Positions 2,611 through 56,682 of a stretch of 64,000 nt of DNA are shown piece after piece (position 1 is the first letter of the stretch; the number at the start of each line of letters is the position of its first letter). Under the pieces are notes generated by a model. The model made no database searches. It worked only from the letters and a program-made list of their open reading frames with translations, and was not told where the DNA came from. Source of the stretch: Halomontanus rarus (GTDB lineage: Archaea; Halobacteriota; Halobacteria; Halobacteriales; Natrialbaceae); the NCBI RefSeq assembly GCF_017357405.1, contig NZ_CP071598.1:558001-622000 (forward strand), read 5' to 3'. Both the position numbers and the translations under genes were made by a program.

Positions 2611-3783
2611 TCAACGTCCGAGGAGAAGCATCGATCCGTAGCCGAGCCCGAACGCGAGCACGAACGACCCGGCCCAGGCGAGGACGGTGAATCCCAGTTT
2701 CCGGGGGCTGACGCCGGCCCCGCCGGAGACCGCGAACCCGCTGCCGACGATGGCGCTCACGACGATCTCGTTGAACGAGACCGGCACCCCCAGCAGGACC
2801 GCGGTCTGTGCGATGAGAAACGAGGGAACGAGCGTCGCGATCGATCGGCGCGGACCCAGCGAGGCGTACTCCCGGGAGATCGACTTGATCATCCGCGGTG
2901 CGCTGGTCCAGGAGCCGACGAGGATCCCGACGCCGCCGCCGAGCAAGAGCGCGATCGGCGACGCCATCGGGAGCCCCTCGAGCAGCGGAAACAGCGGGCC
3001 GACGGCCAGCCCGACCTGACTCGCCCCCGCCGAGAACGCCACGAGCGCGCCGAGCGAGAGCAGAAACCGGCGCAGTCCACTAGCCTGATCTCGAGCGACG
3101 TCCCAGCGGACGACGGCCGCGGCCACGACGCCCAAACCGAGCGAGATCGCGACCGTGGACGCGGCGCCGTCGACGGGAACCAGAGCGGTCCCGGCGGCGG
3201 CGAGCGTTCCCCCGAGCGACGAGAGAAACGCGAACTCGAGGTTCGCAACTACGACGCCGACGATGCCGGCGAGTATCGGAATACTAACGTCCTCGGGAAC
3301 GTCCGGCCGCGGGAGGACGCTCGCGATTCCGTAGGCGATTCCCCCGCCGACGAACGGCGTGAGCACCCACACCGCGCCGATTTCGGCGTACTTCCCCCAC
3401 ACCGGATCGCCGCCGAGTGCGAAGCCGACGCCGAGTACCGACCCGGTCACGGTGAACGCGGTCGCGATCGGATAGCCGGTGGAGATACCGATCGCCATCA
3501 GTCCGGCGCCGATCGACAGGACGACGATGACGCCGCCGACCGGCAGACTGACTCCGTCGACGAGGCCGCTCCCGACGGCCTCCGAGACGCTCGCGCCCTG
3601 GGTCACCGCGCCGGCGAAACCGAGGATCCCGACGAAGAACGCCGCCCGCATCGTCGGGATCGCGTTCGCGCCGACCGCCGGTGCGAACGGGGTCGCGCCG
3701 CTCGAGCCGGCCCCGATCACCCAGGCCATGAACAGGCTCGCGACGGCGGCGGTGGCGAACAGCAGTATCGTCGTGGGTTCCAT
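2611..3783 (-). CDS. PiT/CysP-type anion permease, last gene of a sulfur operon
   Basis: A 390-residue polytopic membrane protein of the inorganic phosphate transporter (PiT) family, with the signature VGANAIP near residue 40 and a second, inverted-repeat-related copy, VGSGFAVSGG, near 350. The hydrophobic pattern suggests ten or more helices. Its start lies 45 bases after the YeeE/YedE genes on the same strand, which links it to sulfur rather than phosphate. Bacterial CysP sulfate permeases belong to the same superfamily, so sulfate or thiosulfate import is a reasonable alternative to phosphate. Sequence alone cannot decide the substrate. It converges on the MetE-like gene. Confidence 0.85.
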   Translation of the reverse strand: MEPTTILLFATAAVASLFMAWVIGAGSSGATPFAPAVGANAIPTMRAAFFVGILGFAGAVTQGASVSEAVGSGLVDGVSLPVGGVIVVLSIGAGLMAIGISTGYPIATAFTVTGSVLGVGFALGGDPVWGKYAEIGAVWVLTPFVGGGIAYGIASVLPRPDVPEDVSIPILAGIVGVVVANLEFAFLSSLGGTLAAAGTALVPVDGAASTVAISLGLGVVAAAVVRWDVARDQASGLRRFLLSLGALVAFSAGASQVGLAVGPLFPLLEGLPMASPIALLLGGGVGILVGSWTSAPRMIKSISREYASLGPRRSIATLVPSFLIAQTAVLLGVPVSFNEIVVSAIVGSGFAVSGGAGVSPRKLGFTVLAWAGSFVLAFGLGYGSMLLLGR

Positions 3784-45372: not shown

Positions 45373-46338
45373 ATGACCACGAACGACGGCGATCACGAGC
45401 GGCGCTCCGATTCCGGTCAGCGTTCCGAACCTGCCGACGCCGACGGCTACAATCACATCGATCAGGCTGTCATCGACTCGGTCGGAGCACTCGGCAACCG
45501 CTGGCGCCTCGAGATCCTACTGTCGCTAGCCGAGGCCGAGTGGGAACACAGAACGAACGGCTACGTCCTGTCGTTTACGGAGCTCTACGACGCGGTCGAC
45601 GTCGCGAGTACCTCGCAGTTTTCCTACCACCTCGAGAAACTGGTCGGGCAGTTCGTCGACGAAACCGAAGACGGGTATCGTCTCACTCACGCCGGCGGGA
45701 AACTCGTTCGCGCCATCTTCTCCGGCGTCTACGAGCGTGCACCGGCGTTCGAACCGATCGATCTCGAGGGCGGGTGTCTCGCGTGTGACTCGACGGCACT
45801 CGTCGGGGCCCGTCGAGACGATATGTTCGTCGTGACGTGTGCGGAGTGCGAGACGACGCTCGTCGCCGACTACCTCCCGAGAAGTCAGACGCGGTCACGG
45901 ACGCCCGCGGAGATCGCCGAGAGCGTGAGTCGTCGAATCTGGAGTAGCGTCGTTCTCGTCCGGGGTGGTGTCTGTCCCGAGTGTTACGGCCGCGTCGAGA
46001 CGACCGTCGACTCGCAGGAACTGGGTGAGCGATCGTTCTACACGAGCGTCAGCACCTGCTGTGAGTGTCGATTCACCGTTCACTTGCCGATCGAGGTCTC
46101 GGCCGCGTTTCATCCGGCCGCGATCGGATTCCTCCGGGAACATGGCACGTCCCTGTTCGACGTTCCAATCTGGGAACTGTTCGGCCACATCCGGTCGGAG
46201 ACGCTGTCGACGACCGTGTGCTCCGAGTCGCCGTTCGAGGCGACGGTCGAAATTACCCGTGACGGCGAGACGCTGACGCTCGCACTCGAGGATGACGACT
46301 CGCTGACCGTACGGCCGACCGAACGACTCGAGCGGTGA
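45373..46338 (+). CDS. ArsR-like HTH regulator with zinc-ribbon middle (DUF7351-type)
   Basis: A 321-residue regulator. After an acidic head (1-30), the winged helix spans about 33-118, with GALGNRWRLEILLSLAEAE near 38 and SQFSYHLEKLVGQFV near 77-91. Two Cys pairs, CLACDS near 136 and CAEC near 156, make a zinc ribbon, and CPEC (near 200) with CCEC (near 227) may form a second. The C-terminal domain is beta-rich. This is a common haloarchaeal architecture, and target genes are unknown. Its HTH resembles the one fused to citrate synthase at 52-53 kb. Confidence 0.85.
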   Translation: MTTNDGDHERRSDSGQRSEPADADGYNHIDQAVIDSVGALGNRWRLEILLSLAEAEWEHRTNGYVLSFTELYDAVDVASTSQFSYHLEKLVGQFVDETEDGYRLTHAGGKLVRAIFSGVYERAPAFEPIDLEGGCLACDSTALVGARRDDMFVVTCAECETTLVADYLPRSQTRSRTPAEIAESVSRRIWSSVVLVRGGVCPECYGRVETTVDSQELGERSFYTSVSTCCECRFTVHLPIEVSAAFHPAAIGFLREHGTSLFDVPIWELFGHIRSETLSTTVCSESPFEATVEITRDGETLTLALEDDDSLTVRPTERLER

Positions 46339-50419: not shown

Positions 50420-51688
50420 TCAGTCGGTCACCGTCTCGACGAGTTCCCTCGCGCGACTCGCTCGAACGTCGTCTTCGGCGACCATCCGGGCGGCAATCTC
50501 TGCGACGAGGTCTTCGGGTGCACCGGCCTCGGCCGCGACGTTCTTGGCGTGGAGTTTCATGTGTCCCGTCTGGATCCCTTCGTCGGCGAGTGCCCGCATA
50601 CTGGCAACGTTCTCTGCGAGTCCAACCGACGCGAACACGCCGGCGAGTTCGTCGGCAGTATCGACGTCGAGGAGTTCCATCGCAGCGTGAGCGGTCGGGT
50701 GTGCGCGCGTCGCGCCGCCGACGACACCGGTCTGGACCGGGACCTCGATACTGCAGGAGAGGTTCCCGTCGGCATCGACCTCGTACGTCGTCAGCGGCCC
50801 GTAGCCGTCGCGTGCAGCGTACGCGTGTGCACCAGCCTCGATGGCACGCCAGTCGTTCATCGTGGCCAGCGCGAGGCTGTCCATTCCGTTCAGGACTCCC
50901 TTGTTGTGCGTAGCCGCACGGTACGGATCGGCCGCGGCGAACGCCCACGCGTCGACGATCCGGTCGCGGACCTCCGCACTCGAGTGTTCGGTGTCGTCTC
51001 GATCCAGCGCCTCGGTCGGAATCGTACAACGGGCGCGAGCGAGACGGCGGTCGGCCAAATTCGAGAGAATTCGGAGAATGACCTCGCCGCCCGTCAACTC
51101 CTCGACGAGCGGGGCGACCCCTTCCGCCATAGTATTGACCGCGTTCGCACCCATCGCGTCCTGCGTGTTGACGACCAGATGGACGACCACCATTTCCCCC
51201 CTCGGTGTGTCGAGGACGCGAGCCGTCACCTCCTCACAGCCGCCACCGTGGGAAACCAGCACGCCTTGATCGTTCGCCTCCGCTCGAATCTCGCTCGCGT
51301 GCTCGAGAATGCGGGCTCTCGCAGCCCGTGGATCGGCGAGATCCGTCACCTGAATCTGGCCGATCATGAAGGGGCCGTCGACGGACGTATAGAAGCCTCC
51401 GTGGTGTCGTGCGAGTTTTGCACCGTGTGCGGCAGCGGCGACGACGCTGCTCTCCTCGGTTGCCATCGGAACGAACCGATCGACGCCGTCTATTCGGAAG
51501 TTGGTCGCAATGCTCAGCGGATAGGCGATCGTGGAGATCACGTTTTCGGAGAGCTGGTCGGCAACATCGAGCTGTGACGTCGTTTCGAGTGCGTCACGCG
51601 CGTCGGAATCGCAGTCACACCGCTCGAGGATCGCCTCGAGCCGATCTGCTGGTGAGAGTTCGTAGAACCCAGGTACTCGAGAGTCCAT
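50420..51688 (-). CDS. mvaA: Class II (bacterial-type) HMG-CoA reductase
   Basis: A 422-residue HMG-CoA reductase. Class II features include VPMATEESSVVAAAAHGAK near 73-91 (catalytic Glu in ATEES), DAMGANAVNTM near 177-187 (NAD(P)/catalytic Asp region), HNKGVLNG near 264-271 (catalytic Lys), and the His in TGHMKLHAKN near 381. The usual mevalonate-pathway enzyme of haloarchaea is class I, so this is either a second, possibly degradative enzyme or a replacement gained from bacteria. It reads away from the zinc-ribbon gene and is monocistronic. Confidence 0.9.
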   Translation of the reverse strand: MDSRVPGFYELSPADRLEAILERCDCDSDARDALETTSQLDVADQLSENVISTIAYPLSIATNFRIDGVDRFVPMATEESSVVAAAAHGAKLARHHGGFYTSVDGPFMIGQIQVTDLADPRAARARILEHASEIRAEANDQGVLVSHGGGCEEVTARVLDTPRGEMVVVHLVVNTQDAMGANAVNTMAEGVAPLVEELTGGEVILRILSNLADRRLARARCTIPTEALDRDDTEHSSAEVRDRIVDAWAFAAADPYRAATHNKGVLNGMDSLALATMNDWRAIEAGAHAYAARDGYGPLTTYEVDADGNLSCSIEVPVQTGVVGGATRAHPTAHAAMELLDVDTADELAGVFASVGLAENVASMRALADEGIQTGHMKLHAKNVAAEAGAPEDLVAEIAARMVAEDDVRASRARELVETVTD

Positions 51689-52037
51689 ATCGCTCGATTG
51701 CGAGCTACAGTGTTTAGTTTGTACGGGTATCCGAAGCGAGGTAAGAGCGATTCCGACGGGATCACAACCTCGGAGGATGCGATCGTTGCGTGTCCTTATT
51801 TCACCCCATATTGTGCGAATATTTTATTGGTAGATCTGCGAGTCTCGCACCGAGAGGGAAGCGAGCAGTTCACCGGAGGAGACCCGACGAGGAAAATGAC
51901 GACTACACCTCACGACCTCCCATTTCGCCCGATATCAGCCGAGGCCTTTCCAGTAAAGTTGATTCCCTCCATCTGATGTGCAGTGGGGACTTCCTCCGTA
52001 ACACTGTTGATGACGTGATGGGAATATCTAAGACAGT
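51689..52037. other. Upstream region of the citrate synthase fusion
   Basis: No gene is supported. The stretch is less GC-rich than its surroundings. A TATA-like GGAATATCTAAG (52021-52032) sits between two 7-bp inverted-repeat arms at the GTG start of the next gene. Confidence 0.5.
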
Positions 52038-52039
52038 GT
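52011..52039. promoter_or_regulatory. Inverted repeat flanking the promoter and start of the citrate synthase fusion
   Basis: ACACTGT (52011-52017) and ACAGTGT (52033-52039) are perfect 7-bp inverted arms 22 bases apart centre to centre, about two helical turns. The right arm covers the GTG start codon and the TATA-like element lies between the arms. This is a good position for a repressor, possibly the gene's own HTH domain. Confidence 0.5.
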
Positions 52040-53483
52040 GACTCCCTCCGTCTTCGATCCTGGCCTCTCCTTCACCGCAGTCGCTGAAACTGGCCTCAGC
52101 GAAATCGACAGCGACACCGGTGAATTGCGAATCCAAGGGTTCTCAATCGAAGACCTTGCCGAGAATGCGGCTTACGAAGAGGTAGCGTGGTTGTTGTTCA
52201 ACGGGCGACTCCCGACCGACAAAGAGTTAGCTGAGTTCACGAACGAGCTCTCGTCCGCTCGAAGCCTCCCAGAGAATGTCTACAGTCTGATTCAGGCAGG
52301 AGCAGAAGAAGGTGTACCGGCGATAGACGTACTCCGGATGGGGCTGGCAGCGGGAAACCTCTATTTTGACAGTGAGGACACCCTCAGGGCTACCCGACGC
52401 GTCGTCGCAATATGCCCAACGATCATCGCCGCCTACTGGCGGTATCGGCGCGAGTTAGACCCCATACCGCCACGCGACGACCTAGCTCACACGGAGAATT
52501 TCTTATATATGCTCTCCGGGGTAGAACCGGCTGAATCGACTGTGGAAAAGCTAGAGACGTATCTGACAACGATCATCGAACACGGGCTTAATGCCTCGAC
52601 GTTCGCCGCTCGGATTATCGGATCAACCGGGTCCGACCCACTTTCGGCAGCCACCGGTGCCGTAGGGGCGCTCAAGGGACCACGACACGGTGGAGCACTC
52701 GAACGAATTTTTGAGATGCTCACTGGCCTTGATGACGGGATGGACCCCACAACGTATGTTCGAGAGCGACTGGAAGGCGACGGGTCGTTGCCCGGATTCG
52801 GCCACGTTCTCTATAATACCCGAGACCCGCGAGCGAAAATCATCGAACAAGCGGCAGAACGCGTCGGCGAGAAGCAAGATTCAACATCGTTCCTTAGGAA
52901 CGCACAACGGCTTGAGGCCGCCGCTGAGGACTATTTCACTGAACGCGATCCCGAGCGACAACTGCACGCAACCGTCGATTACTACGCGGCAGTTCTCCTT
53001 TACGAACTCGACATTCCACCTGAATTGTTCACCGCGATTTTTGCTATCGGACGCTCCCCCGGCTGGATGGCTCATTATATCGAACAGCTCGAAAGCGAGA
53101 CACTACTTCGTCCTCGGACGCGATACATCGGTCCAGAGGAACGGTCGTGGATTTCGCGCTCGGACAGATACGTCGCCGGCGATTCGAGCCCGCCTTCGTC
53201 CGATCATCTGAAAGGGATTTCCTCAATTCTTGGCACTCTTTCAGAACCCGCTCGGTTGGAGCTGTTATTGATTCTGTACGAGTCAGCGGAGCCGCTTTCG
53301 TACTCGTCGATTCGAGCGCAGAGTTCGATCGAGGATAAAGGGCGGTTCAACTATCATCTCCGAAAACTTCGCAGCATCTATATCACGAATACAGATGCTG
53401 GTTATTCATTGTCTGATACGGGTCGGAAAGTCGTTGAGATGCTCGTCGATGACGAGCAATTGCTCGCACGAACAATCGGATAG
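52038..53483 (+). CDS. Citrate synthase-like protein fused to C-terminal ArsR-like HTH
   Basis: A 481-residue two-part protein. Residues about 1-375 are a citrate synthase fold, with His182 in EHGLNASTFAARI, GALKGPRHGGAL near 215, GFGHVLYNTRDPRAK near 252 and HATVDYYAAVLL near 310, which retains the catalytic Asp. The Arg that normally follows GFGH is Val here, so oxaloacetate binding may be altered. Residues about 391-475 are a winged helix of the haloarchaeal ArsR-like type: LSEPARLELLLILYESAEPL, GRFNYHLRKLRS and GYSLSDTGRKVVEML. GTG start. It may act as a metabolite-sensing regulator. A paralogous enzyme gene follows. Confidence 0.88.
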   Translation: MTPSVFDPGLSFTAVAETGLSEIDSDTGELRIQGFSIEDLAENAAYEEVAWLLFNGRLPTDKELAEFTNELSSARSLPENVYSLIQAGAEEGVPAIDVLRMGLAAGNLYFDSEDTLRATRRVVAICPTIIAAYWRYRRELDPIPPRDDLAHTENFLYMLSGVEPAESTVEKLETYLTTIIEHGLNASTFAARIIGSTGSDPLSAATGAVGALKGPRHGGALERIFEMLTGLDDGMDPTTYVRERLEGDGSLPGFGHVLYNTRDPRAKIIEQAAERVGEKQDSTSFLRNAQRLEAAAEDYFTERDPERQLHATVDYYAAVLLYELDIPPELFTAIFAIGRSPGWMAHYIEQLESETLLRPRTRYIGPEERSWISRSDRYVAGDSSPPSSDHLKGISSILGTLSEPARLELLLILYESAEPLSYSSIRAQSSIEDKGRFNYHLRKLRSIYITNTDAGYSLSDTGRKVVEMLVDDEQLLARTIG

Positions 53484-53525
53484 ATGAGTCGTGGATAGGG
53501 GAAGCAGATTTACCCTGTAGTATTG

Positions 53526-53542: not shown

Positions 53543-53722
53543 GAGAACTGCTCGAAACCTCCGATAAAATCGTCTCTAACCGTCTTCTAAAGGGATAGGA
53601 AACCACGAGAACAATCGGTCCACTGCCTGATCGTGTTCCCGTGTTGGATGGTGATTGGCGGTAGAGGAGAAATGGACTTCTCCAAAGCCCTATCTCCAAT
53701 TCTTCCGTCTCTATACATTAGC

Positions 53723-54856
53723 ATGGTCGACCAAGAGCTCCACCGAGGATTAGAAGACATCGCCGTCGCGGAAACACGACTCAGTACTATCGACGGCGAG
53801 GCTGGTGAACTCATCATCGGGGGATACCCTGTCGAGGAACTCGCCAAGAACGCGCTCTACGAGGAAAGCGTTTTCCTGTTGTTTAACGACCGACTTCCGA
53901 CTAAATCGGAACTCGAATCGTTTCGCACGGAACTCGCTGGCTATCGGAAAATCTCCGAGGAAATCAAACAGGTGCTTCGACAAGCGGCACGAGAAAACGC
54001 GGACGCGATGGATGCTCTGCGGATGGGTGTGGCCGCAGCCAATCTCGGCTTCGACTCGACGGAATCGACGGACCACGCCAAGCGACTGGTGAGTGTGATC
54101 CCAACGATCGTCACGACGTATTGGCGATATCGCTCGGGTAAAGAGCCGGTGGAGCCACGCGACGACCTCGGCCACACTGCGAACTACCTCTACATGCTGT
54201 CTGGCGAAGAGCCCGACCCTGCAGCTGTGAGAGGACTCGAGACCTACCTCAATACGGTTGTTGACCACGGACTGAACGCATCCACCTTCGTTGCTCGGTC
54301 TATCGCGTCGTCCGATTCAGACCTCGTTTCAGCAGTAACGGGTGCAGTGGGGTCGCTAAAGGGACCGCTTCACGGTGGTGCGCCTGGGCCGGTTTTGGAG
54401 ATGCTCCTCGTAGCACACGAATCTGACGATCCGGAGGGTTATGTGCAAGAGAAACTCGACGCCGGTGAGCGGCTTATGGGCTTTGGACACCGAGTGTATC
54501 GTACGCGTGATCCACGTGCAGAGGTCCTCTCCCGCGCCGCTGAGCGGCTCTATTCTGGATCGGGCGACAGAGCGTTCTTCGGATTTGTCGAAGAGTTCGA
54601 AGAGACTGCGGTCAGTCGACTGTCCGACCACAAGCCCGACCGAAAACTCGAAACGAACGTCGAGTTCTATACGGCTGTGCTCCTGTATGGAGTTGGCATC
54701 CCGCAGGAGTTGTTTACGACCACCTTCGCCGTGTCACGAGTCGGTGGTTGGGTGGCTCATTGCCTCGAGCAGGCAGCAGATAACAAGATAATTCGCCCTG
54801 TGTCCATCTACGTTGGTGACCATAACCGGTCTTGGACTCCAGCAGAGAACCGCTAG
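53723..54856 (+). CDS. Citrate/2-methylcitrate synthase family protein
   Basis: A 377-residue citrate synthase-like enzyme without the HTH tail. Conserved sites are VDHGLNASTFVARSI near 177, GSLKGPLHGGAPG near 210, GFGHRVYRTRDPRAE near 251 (normal Arg after GFGH) and GGWVAHCLEQ near 340. At the position of the catalytic Asp the sequence is NVEFYTAVLL, so Glu replaces Asp. Reaction could be citrate or 2-methylcitrate formation, or a changed activity. The start at 53723 follows a TATACATTA element and matches the paralogue. It is 240 bases downstream of the HTH-fused paralogue, and the two are clearly an old duplication. Confidence 0.88.
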   Translation: MVDQELHRGLEDIAVAETRLSTIDGEAGELIIGGYPVEELAKNALYEESVFLLFNDRLPTKSELESFRTELAGYRKISEEIKQVLRQAARENADAMDALRMGVAAANLGFDSTESTDHAKRLVSVIPTIVTTYWRYRSGKEPVEPRDDLGHTANYLYMLSGEEPDPAAVRGLETYLNTVVDHGLNASTFVARSIASSDSDLVSAVTGAVGSLKGPLHGGAPGPVLEMLLVAHESDDPEGYVQEKLDAGERLMGFGHRVYRTRDPRAEVLSRAAERLYSGSGDRAFFGFVEEFEETAVSRLSDHKPDRKLETNVEFYTAVLLYGVGIPQELFTTTFAVSRVGGWVAHCLEQAADNKIIRPVSIYVGDHNRSWTPAENR

Positions 54857-55481: not shown

Positions 55482-56615
55482 TCACCCGCGATCCCCGCCC
55501 AGCACGTCGTCGATCCGGTCCGCCGTCTCGCCGGCCTGAATGTTCGAGTACGCGGCGTGCGTGGTTTCGATCGACTTGTGTCGCAGCGCCGACTGTGCGT
55601 CTTCGGCCCGCCCCTCCGAGTAGAAGGCGTGGCCCAGCCCTCGGCGAGCGCCGTGAGGTTTCAGATACTCGCCGTCGATCTCCAGATCGAAGCGCGTACA
55701 GATCCGCTTCATGACGTTTCGCGCGCCGTTCGTCGAAATTGATGGCGGGGCGATCTCGTGATCGCGAAGCAGGTCGTCGACGTCGCGGTTCTCGAGTACT
55801 CGATCGATCCGATCCTCGGTATACTCGTCTCGCAGGCCGTCTCTGACCGCCTGATGGAGCGACGCGGCGTGTCGAGACGGGAAGACCGGCCACTCGTCGA
55901 TCGGCGGTTCGAGGACCTCTCGATACCGCCTGAGGGCGCGTGCAGCACGGGACGGAAGGGGAGCGTGTTCGGTCTCTCGAGACTTCCCCAGGACCGCGAT
56001 CGAATTCGCCTCGAAGTCGACGTCAGCCCACCTGAGCCCGTTGCGACGGGCGTCTCGCGGGGCGGAAAACACTTCGGCCCCGCGGACGCCCGACAGCGCG
56101 AGGAGGGTCACGAGCGCCCGATCGCGCATGCGAGTTCGGAGGATCGGTCTCGGGGCCACGGGGTGCTCGAGGGCGCTCGTCACCTGCTGGTCGGCGTAGC
56201 GCAAGAGTGCATCTCGTTTGCCGGCCGTCCAGAACTGCTGTGTGCCGGTTCCCTCGTCCTCCGGCAGGGGTTCGACGGCCCGGTTCGTCATCGCGGGGTT
56301 CGTGTCCAGTTGTTCGTCCCGGACGGCGAAGCTCAGAAACGCCCGGACGAACGCGTAGTAGGTCCGTGCGGTCGATCCCGCGAACTCGCCCGCGTCGACG
56401 CGCTCGGCGAGGTGAAACGCGTACTCGCGACAGCACTTCGGGTCGATCGACTCGAAGTCGTCGACGTTTCGTCGAGCGAGCCACTCGCGCCACGACTCGA
56501 GGGCGTACGCCATGTTTCTGGCGCTGGTTTCTGCTTGTCGCGTATTGAGGTAGTCGTCGATACACCGCTCGAGGGTCTTTTCCCCGGGGTCAGCCCCCGT
56601 CGATCCGGTTTCCAT
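55482..56615 (-). CDS. Tyrosine recombinase/integrase (XerC/D-like)
   Basis: A 377-residue site-specific recombinase. Residues about 14-115 form the SAM-like core-binding domain. The catalytic domain shows Arg in LLALSGVRGAEVF near 182, a beta-hairpin Lys near 219 (LGKSRETEH), HGARRGLG near 316 (His/Arg) and LRHKSIETTHAAYSN near 338, where the Tyr is the nucleophile. No tRNA gene or attachment duplication lies next to it in the window. A start at 56615 is supported by CCTAAAGG (56646-56653) as a TATA-like element. It could be an orphan integrase of the decayed elements nearby. Confidence 0.9.
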   Translation of the reverse strand: METGSTGADPGEKTLERCIDDYLNTRQAETSARNMAYALESWREWLARRNVDDFESIDPKCCREYAFHLAERVDAGEFAGSTARTYYAFVRAFLSFAVRDEQLDTNPAMTNRAVEPLPEDEGTGTQQFWTAGKRDALLRYADQQVTSALEHPVAPRPILRTRMRDRALVTLLALSGVRGAEVFSAPRDARRNGLRWADVDFEANSIAVLGKSRETEHAPLPSRAARALRRYREVLEPPIDEWPVFPSRHAASLHQAVRDGLRDEYTEDRIDRVLENRDVDDLLRDHEIAPPSISTNGARNVMKRICTRFDLEIDGEYLKPHGARRGLGHAFYSEGRAEDAQSALRHKSIETTHAAYSNIQAGETADRIDDVLGGDRG

Positions 56616-56654
56616 CGTCTCGACCGTCCGTACGGCGGCGACCCACCTAAAGGT

Positions 56655-56682
56655 ACTGTGCATAATGGGGATTATGCACAGT
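56655..56682. promoter_or_regulatory. Perfect 12-bp inverted repeat upstream of the recombinase
   Basis: ACTGTGCATAAT and ATTATGCACAGT flank GGGG. The site directly adjoins the TATA-like element of the recombinase gene (minus strand), so it is a candidate operator. It could also be a recombination core site bound by the recombinase itself. Confidence 0.65.

Follow-up and report, generated by a model that had tools for sequence, protein, structure and literature searches.

A haloarchaeal citrate synthase-winged-helix fusion as a probable local regulator of a neighboring citrate synthase gene

Introduction

Enzymes that have been recruited as transcription regulators are known, and citrate synthase (CS), which opens the TCA cycle, serves as a classic example of induced fit. 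The LysR-type regulator CcpE has a sensor that is not enzyme-derived, unlike the CS fusion analyzed here. In Staphylococcus aureus, CcpE is a citrate-responsive transcription regulator of carbon metabolism (PMC11315280). The Caulobacter citrate synthase CitA plays a regulatory role without need of catalysis, acting on the G1-to-S transition via CtrA, and the abstract that describes it names no DNA-binding domain (PMC7083601). An FmdE-transcriptional regulator fusion from Methanosaeta (PMC11237513) joins an archaeal metabolic protein to a regulator, as the CS fusion does, with a different enzyme and a different pathway involved. Two CS genes, citZ (HFX_0432) and gltA (HFX_6170), were knocked down in Haloferax mediterranei (PMC8387396), the second of which may be the plasmid CS P0063.

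The haloarchaeal citrate synthases (NF041301 CitZ and the partner-type family) have the whole fold and the oxaloacetate/citrate ligands that are also found in the fusion, which differs from them in its added C-terminal winged helix and in the drift of its acyl-CoA-side residues. The same winged helix occurs in the DUF7347-DUF7351 proteins (PF24038, PF24042), where it comes first and is joined to DUF7351 instead of citrate synthase. Bacterial proteins annotated as 'citrate synthase family protein' (WP_012977894.1 of Azospirillum and WP_099780911.1 of Roseomonas) resemble the fusion in combining a CS with an HTH domain. In these two HTH_17-CS proteins (L240 853-2070 and L241 853-2049), the HTH_17 domain is N-terminal, unlike the C-terminal tail of the fusion, and the residue after GFGH is P in one and R in the other. 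The bacterial proteins share 30-32% identity with about half of the stand-alone CS encoded next to the fusion, HTH_17 (PF12728) is absent from the fusion protein itself, and the two architectures probably have separate origins. The combination of CS and HTH as such is not unique to the fusion. An earlier note on this DNA knew of no described CS-HTH fusion, and among the titles and abstract openings listed from openly licensed papers we likewise found no described CS-HTH fusion, no study of DUF7347, no haloarchaeal CS regulator, and no account of a citrate synthase acting as a DNA-binding sensor.

Results

Domain organization of the fusion

The fusion gene occupies positions 52038-53483 (plus strand) of the window, by which we mean the whole 64,000-nucleotide stretch of DNA that was analyzed. 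It has a GTG start and is a single open frame, uninterrupted across 481 residues, with MTPSVFDPGL as the N-terminal consensus of 51 aligned members. Residues 9-360 (52062-53117) match the citrate synthase model PF00285 over the full length of the fold and above the cut-off (360.3 bits), and residues 398-468 (53229-53441) match the winged helix DUF7347 (PF24038; 66.6 bits against a cut-off of 27.6). A sensor-type and a DNA-binding domain are found in one chain, as in one-component regulators, with the CS domain as the presumptive sensor. The C-terminal winged helix had been read from the letters as ArsR-like and placed at residues 391-475; the winged helix stands, and the ArsR assignment does not, since no ArsR model matched the fusion or the 51 members at E 1e-3. 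The sole Pfam matches in the 51 members were PF00285, PF24038 and, in 21 of them, PF12840 (HTH_20).

An AlphaFold2 model of the fusion, built from a 51-row alignment, has a mean pLDDT of 84.7, and the tail (residues 401-470) reaches block pLDDT values of 81-92. Helices are predicted at 404-414, 422-428, 434-444 and 460-470 and strands at 449-452 and 455-458, which in the model is a winged-helix pattern with the presumed recognition helix at about residues 434-444. A single-sequence model of the tail alone was poor (pLDDT 47) and was discarded, and a PDB sequence search with the tail alone gave one match, which at E 0.23 is not credible. All 50 Foldseek matches listed for the fusion are citrate or methylcitrate synthases, including the oxaloacetate-bound and citrate-bound forms of M. 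sedula CS. With the NF041301 CitZ equivalog, the fusion scored 338.5 bits and the partner CS encoded downstream 377.9; since the partner is also below the curated score of 550, this comparison does not decide on catalysis by the fusion.

Distribution and origin of the fusion and its partner

A protein search with the fusion scored 8000 candidates, 3712 of them at E 1e-3, and the best 120 were examined. Both domains were present in 50 homologs among the 120 matches listed, and the named sources of the two-domain homologs listed are haloarchaea (Haladaptatus, Natrialba, Natrinema, Halogranum, Halocatena, Haloarcula and Halomicroarcula). A full-length fusion was found in 10 of 391 genomes of a class-level sample, and searches of four families gave 8/125, 8/146, 2/170 and 1/28, or 19 of 469 genomes. 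The fusion is a conserved haloarchaeal family. A copy of the fusion and its partner is carried on a 916-kb plasmid of Halomontanus rarus TS33, where they are annotated as two plain citrate synthases, the fusion under the name citrate/2-methylcitrate synthase; it is identical to the window's fusion at 460 of 481 residues, and the partners are 97.3% identical. The window itself lies on the smaller of its genome's two contigs (1.14 Mb). A frameshift or an assembly error, which the earlier note had named as the danger to its reading, is very unlikely in view of the 50 listed two-domain homologs and the plasmid copy. The protein might also be a normal citrate synthase whose extension is accidental and has no function, and the named sources do list it as citrate synthase; with PF00285 and PF24038 both present in 51/51 aligned members (DUF7347 at E 1e-3), and with the conserved operator described below, we regard this as extremely improbable.

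The partner is a stand-alone citrate synthase of 377 aa at 53723-54856 (plus strand; PF00285, 385.8 bits), and the start at 53723 that had been given for this paralogous gene fits. A same-strand CS gene lies downstream of the fusion in 19/19 fusion genomes. The gap between the two genes measures 65-304 nt in 18 genomes and 3647 nt in G032, probably Natrialba magadii, where two frames lacking a Pfam match lie between fusion and partner (L134 10055-12632). In one fragmented assembly (G455) only 130 codons of the partner frame are present. Clustering of the neighbors in the first 12 fusion loci revealed, besides the CS partner, no family common to all, and the sharing of neighbors was mainly among related genomes. 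In the window, the pair is flanked by genes for a degradative HMG-CoA reductase (50420-51688) and a phage-integrase-family protein (55482-56663), likewise in Halomontanus rarus, and an integrase-like homolog is also found near the pair in L132. Among 14 neighbor proteins from 6 of 20 loci that have a related CS and no intact pair, there were no prp genes of a methylcitrate operon; these neighbors were thioredoxin, GST, AzlC, DoxX, MFS, amidase, enolase family, IMS polymerase, PhoU and others.

In a FastTree phylogeny of CS domains (22 fusions, 18 partners, 20 loci without intact pair and 13 others), the fusions form a single clade of 22 tips with support 1.0, within haloarchaeal CS sequences. 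The partners are split over at least two clades, and support is 0.28 at the node linking the fusion clade to one partner group; L003, a further CS from the window's genome, sits on a distant branch. The best explanation is that the fusion arose once, from a haloarchaeal citrate synthase that gained a C-terminal DUF7347 winged helix. With that node support, the adjoining partner group is a weakly placed candidate for the parent, and the pair may not have been strictly co-inherited, a point against the reading proposed below. Families are mixed within the fusion clade, suggesting transfer between haloarchaeal families. One genome (G368; L142, G368:C1:690501-710500) has a hybrid CS gene that lacks the winged-helix tail: its residues 1-60 are 93% identical to the fusion and 60% identical to the partner of its relative G418 (L196), whereas residues 121-378 are 56-67% identical to the fusion and 87-92% to that partner. 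This gene looks like the product of a natural deletion between tandem fusion and partner genes.

A conserved palindrome in front of the partner gene

The earlier note had proposed that the fusion controls its own promoter through a perfect 7-bp inverted repeat. The repeat exists (ACACTGT at 52001-52007 and ACAGTGT at 52033-52039) and begins 10 bases farther upstream than the note had placed it. Its left arm lies inside a stretch common to relatives (CCGTAACACTGTTG), while its right arm is different in 6/6 of those read (H. rarus L239, L132, L134, L136, L139 and L194). Comparable repeats were present in 38% of 2000 random 120-nt stretches from the window. As the right arm is not conserved and such repeats are common, we judge it to be a chance occurrence and reject it as an operator. 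From -200 to +60 around the fusion start, none of the 19 genomes has a site of the kind found before the partner with at least 10 of 12 matching bases (the best, in two genomes, has 9), which speaks against autoregulation through a partner-type operator as well; self-control, as it had been proposed, is thus not borne out.

A different element, the palindrome GGAGAA-N6-TTCTCC at 53666-53683, is the candidate operator (12/12 match). It lies before the partner gene, directly 5' of AAAGCCCTATC and 39 nt ahead of the partner ATG, and abuts a BRE/TATA-like stretch, CCAAAGCCCTATC (53682-53694, plus strand), that may be the promoter of the partner. Sites with at least 10/12 matches occur in 19/19 fusion-partner gaps (28 sites), compared with 10 in the 297,833 positions that make up the rest of the same 19 loci. 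The distance from the end of a site to the partner start is 34-44 nt in 17 of the 19 gaps, and in these 17 loci a similar TATA-like stretch follows at much the same spacing; for G418 and G436, the closest sites are 128 and 92 nt ahead of a script-chosen start, which is possibly wrong. Even across the 3,647-nt gap of G032, the operator is found 43 nt before the partner start. With one site taken from each genome, GAA at positions 4-6 and CTCC at positions 15-18 were invariant in 19/19. Every gap carries this conserved palindrome, a candidate for the cognate operator. Nine of the 19 gaps have two sites of at least 10/12 and ten have one; the window has, in addition to its 12/12 site, a degenerate operator-like site with 9/12 matches at 53498-53515, just past the fusion stop.

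The control set consisted of the 20 loci with a related CS and without an intact pair, one of them the G368 hybrid. Around the CS start of these loci, a site of at least 10/12 was found in 2/20, one of which extends into coding DNA while the other lies 18 nt before the start. A whole-genome search for exact GGRGAAN6TTCYCC yielded 34 sites in the 19 fusion genomes and 9 sites in 21 genomes without full fusion. Of the 34, the gap contains or is touched by 19 (18/19 genomes), and 15 are elsewhere. The window's genome has nine sites with at most one mismatch and none for the reversed pattern: one is the partner operator, another is situated between DUF7347-DUF7351 and cupin genes, and the remaining seven fall within predicted reading frames. 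With few sites outside the gap, mostly in reading frames, a wide regulon of the fusion is not supported; these counts would still be compatible with a small one.

Association of DUF7347 helices with the operator

The window's genome has 12 DUF7347 matches above the cut-off, 11 of them with a readable helix. The fusion, with helix DKGRFNYH, has the 12/12 site downstream, and a DUF7347-DUF7351 protein with helix DNGKFNYH (L204 1868-3043) has an 11/12 site; the other nine helices, including DNGNFNYH and DSGRFNYH, had no site better than 8/12 in the 400 nt downstream and the 300 nt upstream. In L204 the palindrome (3066-3083; G000:C2:1137066) lies between the DUF7347-DUF7351 gene and the cupin gene. 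One of the window's own frames, of 369 codons and about 6.5 kb upstream of the fusion, encodes another DUF7347 (45481-45717) with helix STSQFSYH, and no site above 8/12 adjoins it.

The L204 protein was then searched in 194 genomes, and 30 loci were examined, in 25 of which the helix could be read. All five proteins with helix DNG[KR]FNYH have a 10-12/12 site starting 23-97 nt downstream, compared with 0/20 for other helices, one of which has a 10/12 site upstream. The five are mutual homologs with 46-100% identity to the query and count as one lineage, not as five cases. Three DUF7347 proteins with helix DPGRLNYH (L228, L230 and L231) have TTAGAA-N6-TTCTAT upstream (8/12), a hint, from the shared GAA-N6-TTC core, of a variant operator. 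In the fusions, helix D[KN]G[RQ]FNYH occurs in 47/51, and mean entropy is 0.47 over residues 428-445, compared with 1.04 over residues 398-468 and 1.28 over the CS domain.

DUF7347-DUF7351 proteins with a matching helix thus adjoin the same palindrome as the fusion. This association makes the fusion the likely binder of the partner operator, and at the same time provides the ground for an objection, because a different DUF7347 protein of the cell might recognize the operator, and one more with similar helix and site is present in the window's genome. If such a regulator, for instance a DUF7347-DUF7351 protein, were the binder, the fusion would be an enzyme with an idle tail. Several observations speak against this: the site is in all fusion gaps and in only 2/20 loci without intact pair, at other positions; two fusion genomes (G028 and G032) have no relative of the L204 DUF7347-DUF7351 protein at E 1e-25; and the tail is strongly conserved just at residues 428-445. 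We therefore consider a foreign binder improbable. Control of the paralogous enzyme at 53723 by the fusion, as the earlier note had supposed, is well supported by the pair (19/19), the operator (19/19 gaps) and the helix-matched DUF7347 proteins (5/5).

Retained oxaloacetate/citrate residues and drift on the acyl-CoA side

For M. sedula CS, the catalytic residues are H214, H253 and D307, and the ligand arginines are R262, R332 and, from the other subunit, R351 (PMC6386500). The fusion equivalents by alignment, H217, H256, D314, R265, R339 and R358, are all present. H217, H256, R265, R339 and R358 are kept in 22/22 fusions of the tree and 51/51 of the wider set; position 314 is D in 13/22 and E in 9/22, and the catalytic set H217, H256 and D/E314 is present in 22/22 and 51/51. 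By this comparison the catalytic Asp is D314, and the catalytic histidines are H217 and H256 in place of the earlier note's H182, which, going by animal CS, we take to be a ligand-pocket histidine and which is kept in 21/22 and 50/51 fusions.

The picture is different around the GFGH loop, where R250, M252 and R257 are invariant in 18/18 partners and, from their place beside the loop, would face CoA. The window's fusion has S250, P252 and V257 instead, the last being the Val after GFGH that had already been noticed. Among the fusions of the tree and of the wider set, R250 is kept in 4/22 and 15/51, M252 in 0/22 and 0/51, and R257 in 3/22 and 20/51; given the retention of R257 in 20/51, some fusions may have residual acyl-CoA binding. 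As a baseline for drift we used 119 sites that are near invariant in 43 stand-alone CS sequences. Of these, 34 are variable in the fusions, and the newly variable sites fall disproportionately in the small domain (17 of 34, compared with 18 of 85 others; Fisher p 0.003), which in M. sedula CS holds the acetyl-CoA pocket (PMC6386500). The fusion CS domain was less conserved than the partner in 153/153 comparisons among 18 genomes (mean identity 0.549 and 0.702). We infer from these alignments that the oxaloacetate/citrate site has been kept and the acyl-CoA site relaxed in the fusion, the catalysis of which would be weak or lost. Of the ligands suggested before, oxaloacetate (or citrate) agrees with the retained residues, and acyl-CoA fits less well, as the residues on its side have drifted.

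The intact catalytic His and Asp/Glu, together with R257 in 20/51, also argue that the fusion may still be an enzyme. It could then be a trigger enzyme, that is, an active citrate/2-methylcitrate synthase, the name it bears in the plasmid record, that also regulates the partner. The variability of 34 of 119 near-invariant sites, half of them in the small domain, and the lower conservation relative to the partner count against an active enzyme, and we consider this unlikely, though less so than the other alternatives; it overlaps with the preferred reading, and the two need not exclude each other. The same low conservation could mean that the CS domain is only a ligand-free dimerization platform, with DNA binding either constitutive or governed by contacts with other proteins, such as heterodimers with the partner, which as a close paralog could pair with it. 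Near-strict retention of the oxaloacetate/citrate ligands amid drift on the acyl-CoA side would be unexpected without a ligand, and a pure scaffold appears to us rather improbable, if somewhat less so than a foreign binder.

Discussion

We propose that the fusion is a one-component transcription regulator with the CS dimer as its sensor, and consider it probable, on the sequence comparisons above, that it is a local, oxaloacetate/citrate-sensing regulator of its parent enzyme. Archaeal regulators that bind upstream of BRE often activate, and those that bind over BRE/TATA repress. Here the operator sits next to the presumed BRE or overlaps it by a little, so that the fusion might either activate or repress. 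The small domain of citrate synthases closes when oxaloacetate or citrate binds (PMC6386500, PMC4524684), and ligand-driven domain closure is, by analogy, a plausible switch for the fusion. Oxaloacetate and/or citrate would occupy the retained pocket and bring the small domain down onto the large one, and this closure would shift the two winged helices, the twofold symmetry of which would match that of GGAGAA-N6-TTCTCC. The main target would be the CS gene directly downstream, with its operator abutting the BRE/TATA-like stretch, and the second site near the fusion stop in 9/19 genomes may aid cooperative binding or looping; the single site of the other ten gaps weighs against this reading. 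Ligand binding would be expected to raise expression of the partner, by activation or by derepression.

Taken further, and more tentatively, a duplicated and fused citrate synthase may have become a non-catalytic oxaloacetate/citrate sensor of its parent enzyme, in a two-gene unit that moves between families, with a closure switch, a possible two-operator loop and a readable DUF7347 helix-operator code; we hold this combined picture to be possible, at slightly less than even confidence. The fusion of a near relative is labeled as plain citrate synthase in the plasmid record. DUF7347 is a domain of unknown function that matches 12 times above the cut-off in this genome; the palindrome would be a candidate DNA target for it, and the candidate operator would permit a direct test of whether an archaeal cell reads oxaloacetate/citrate in this way.
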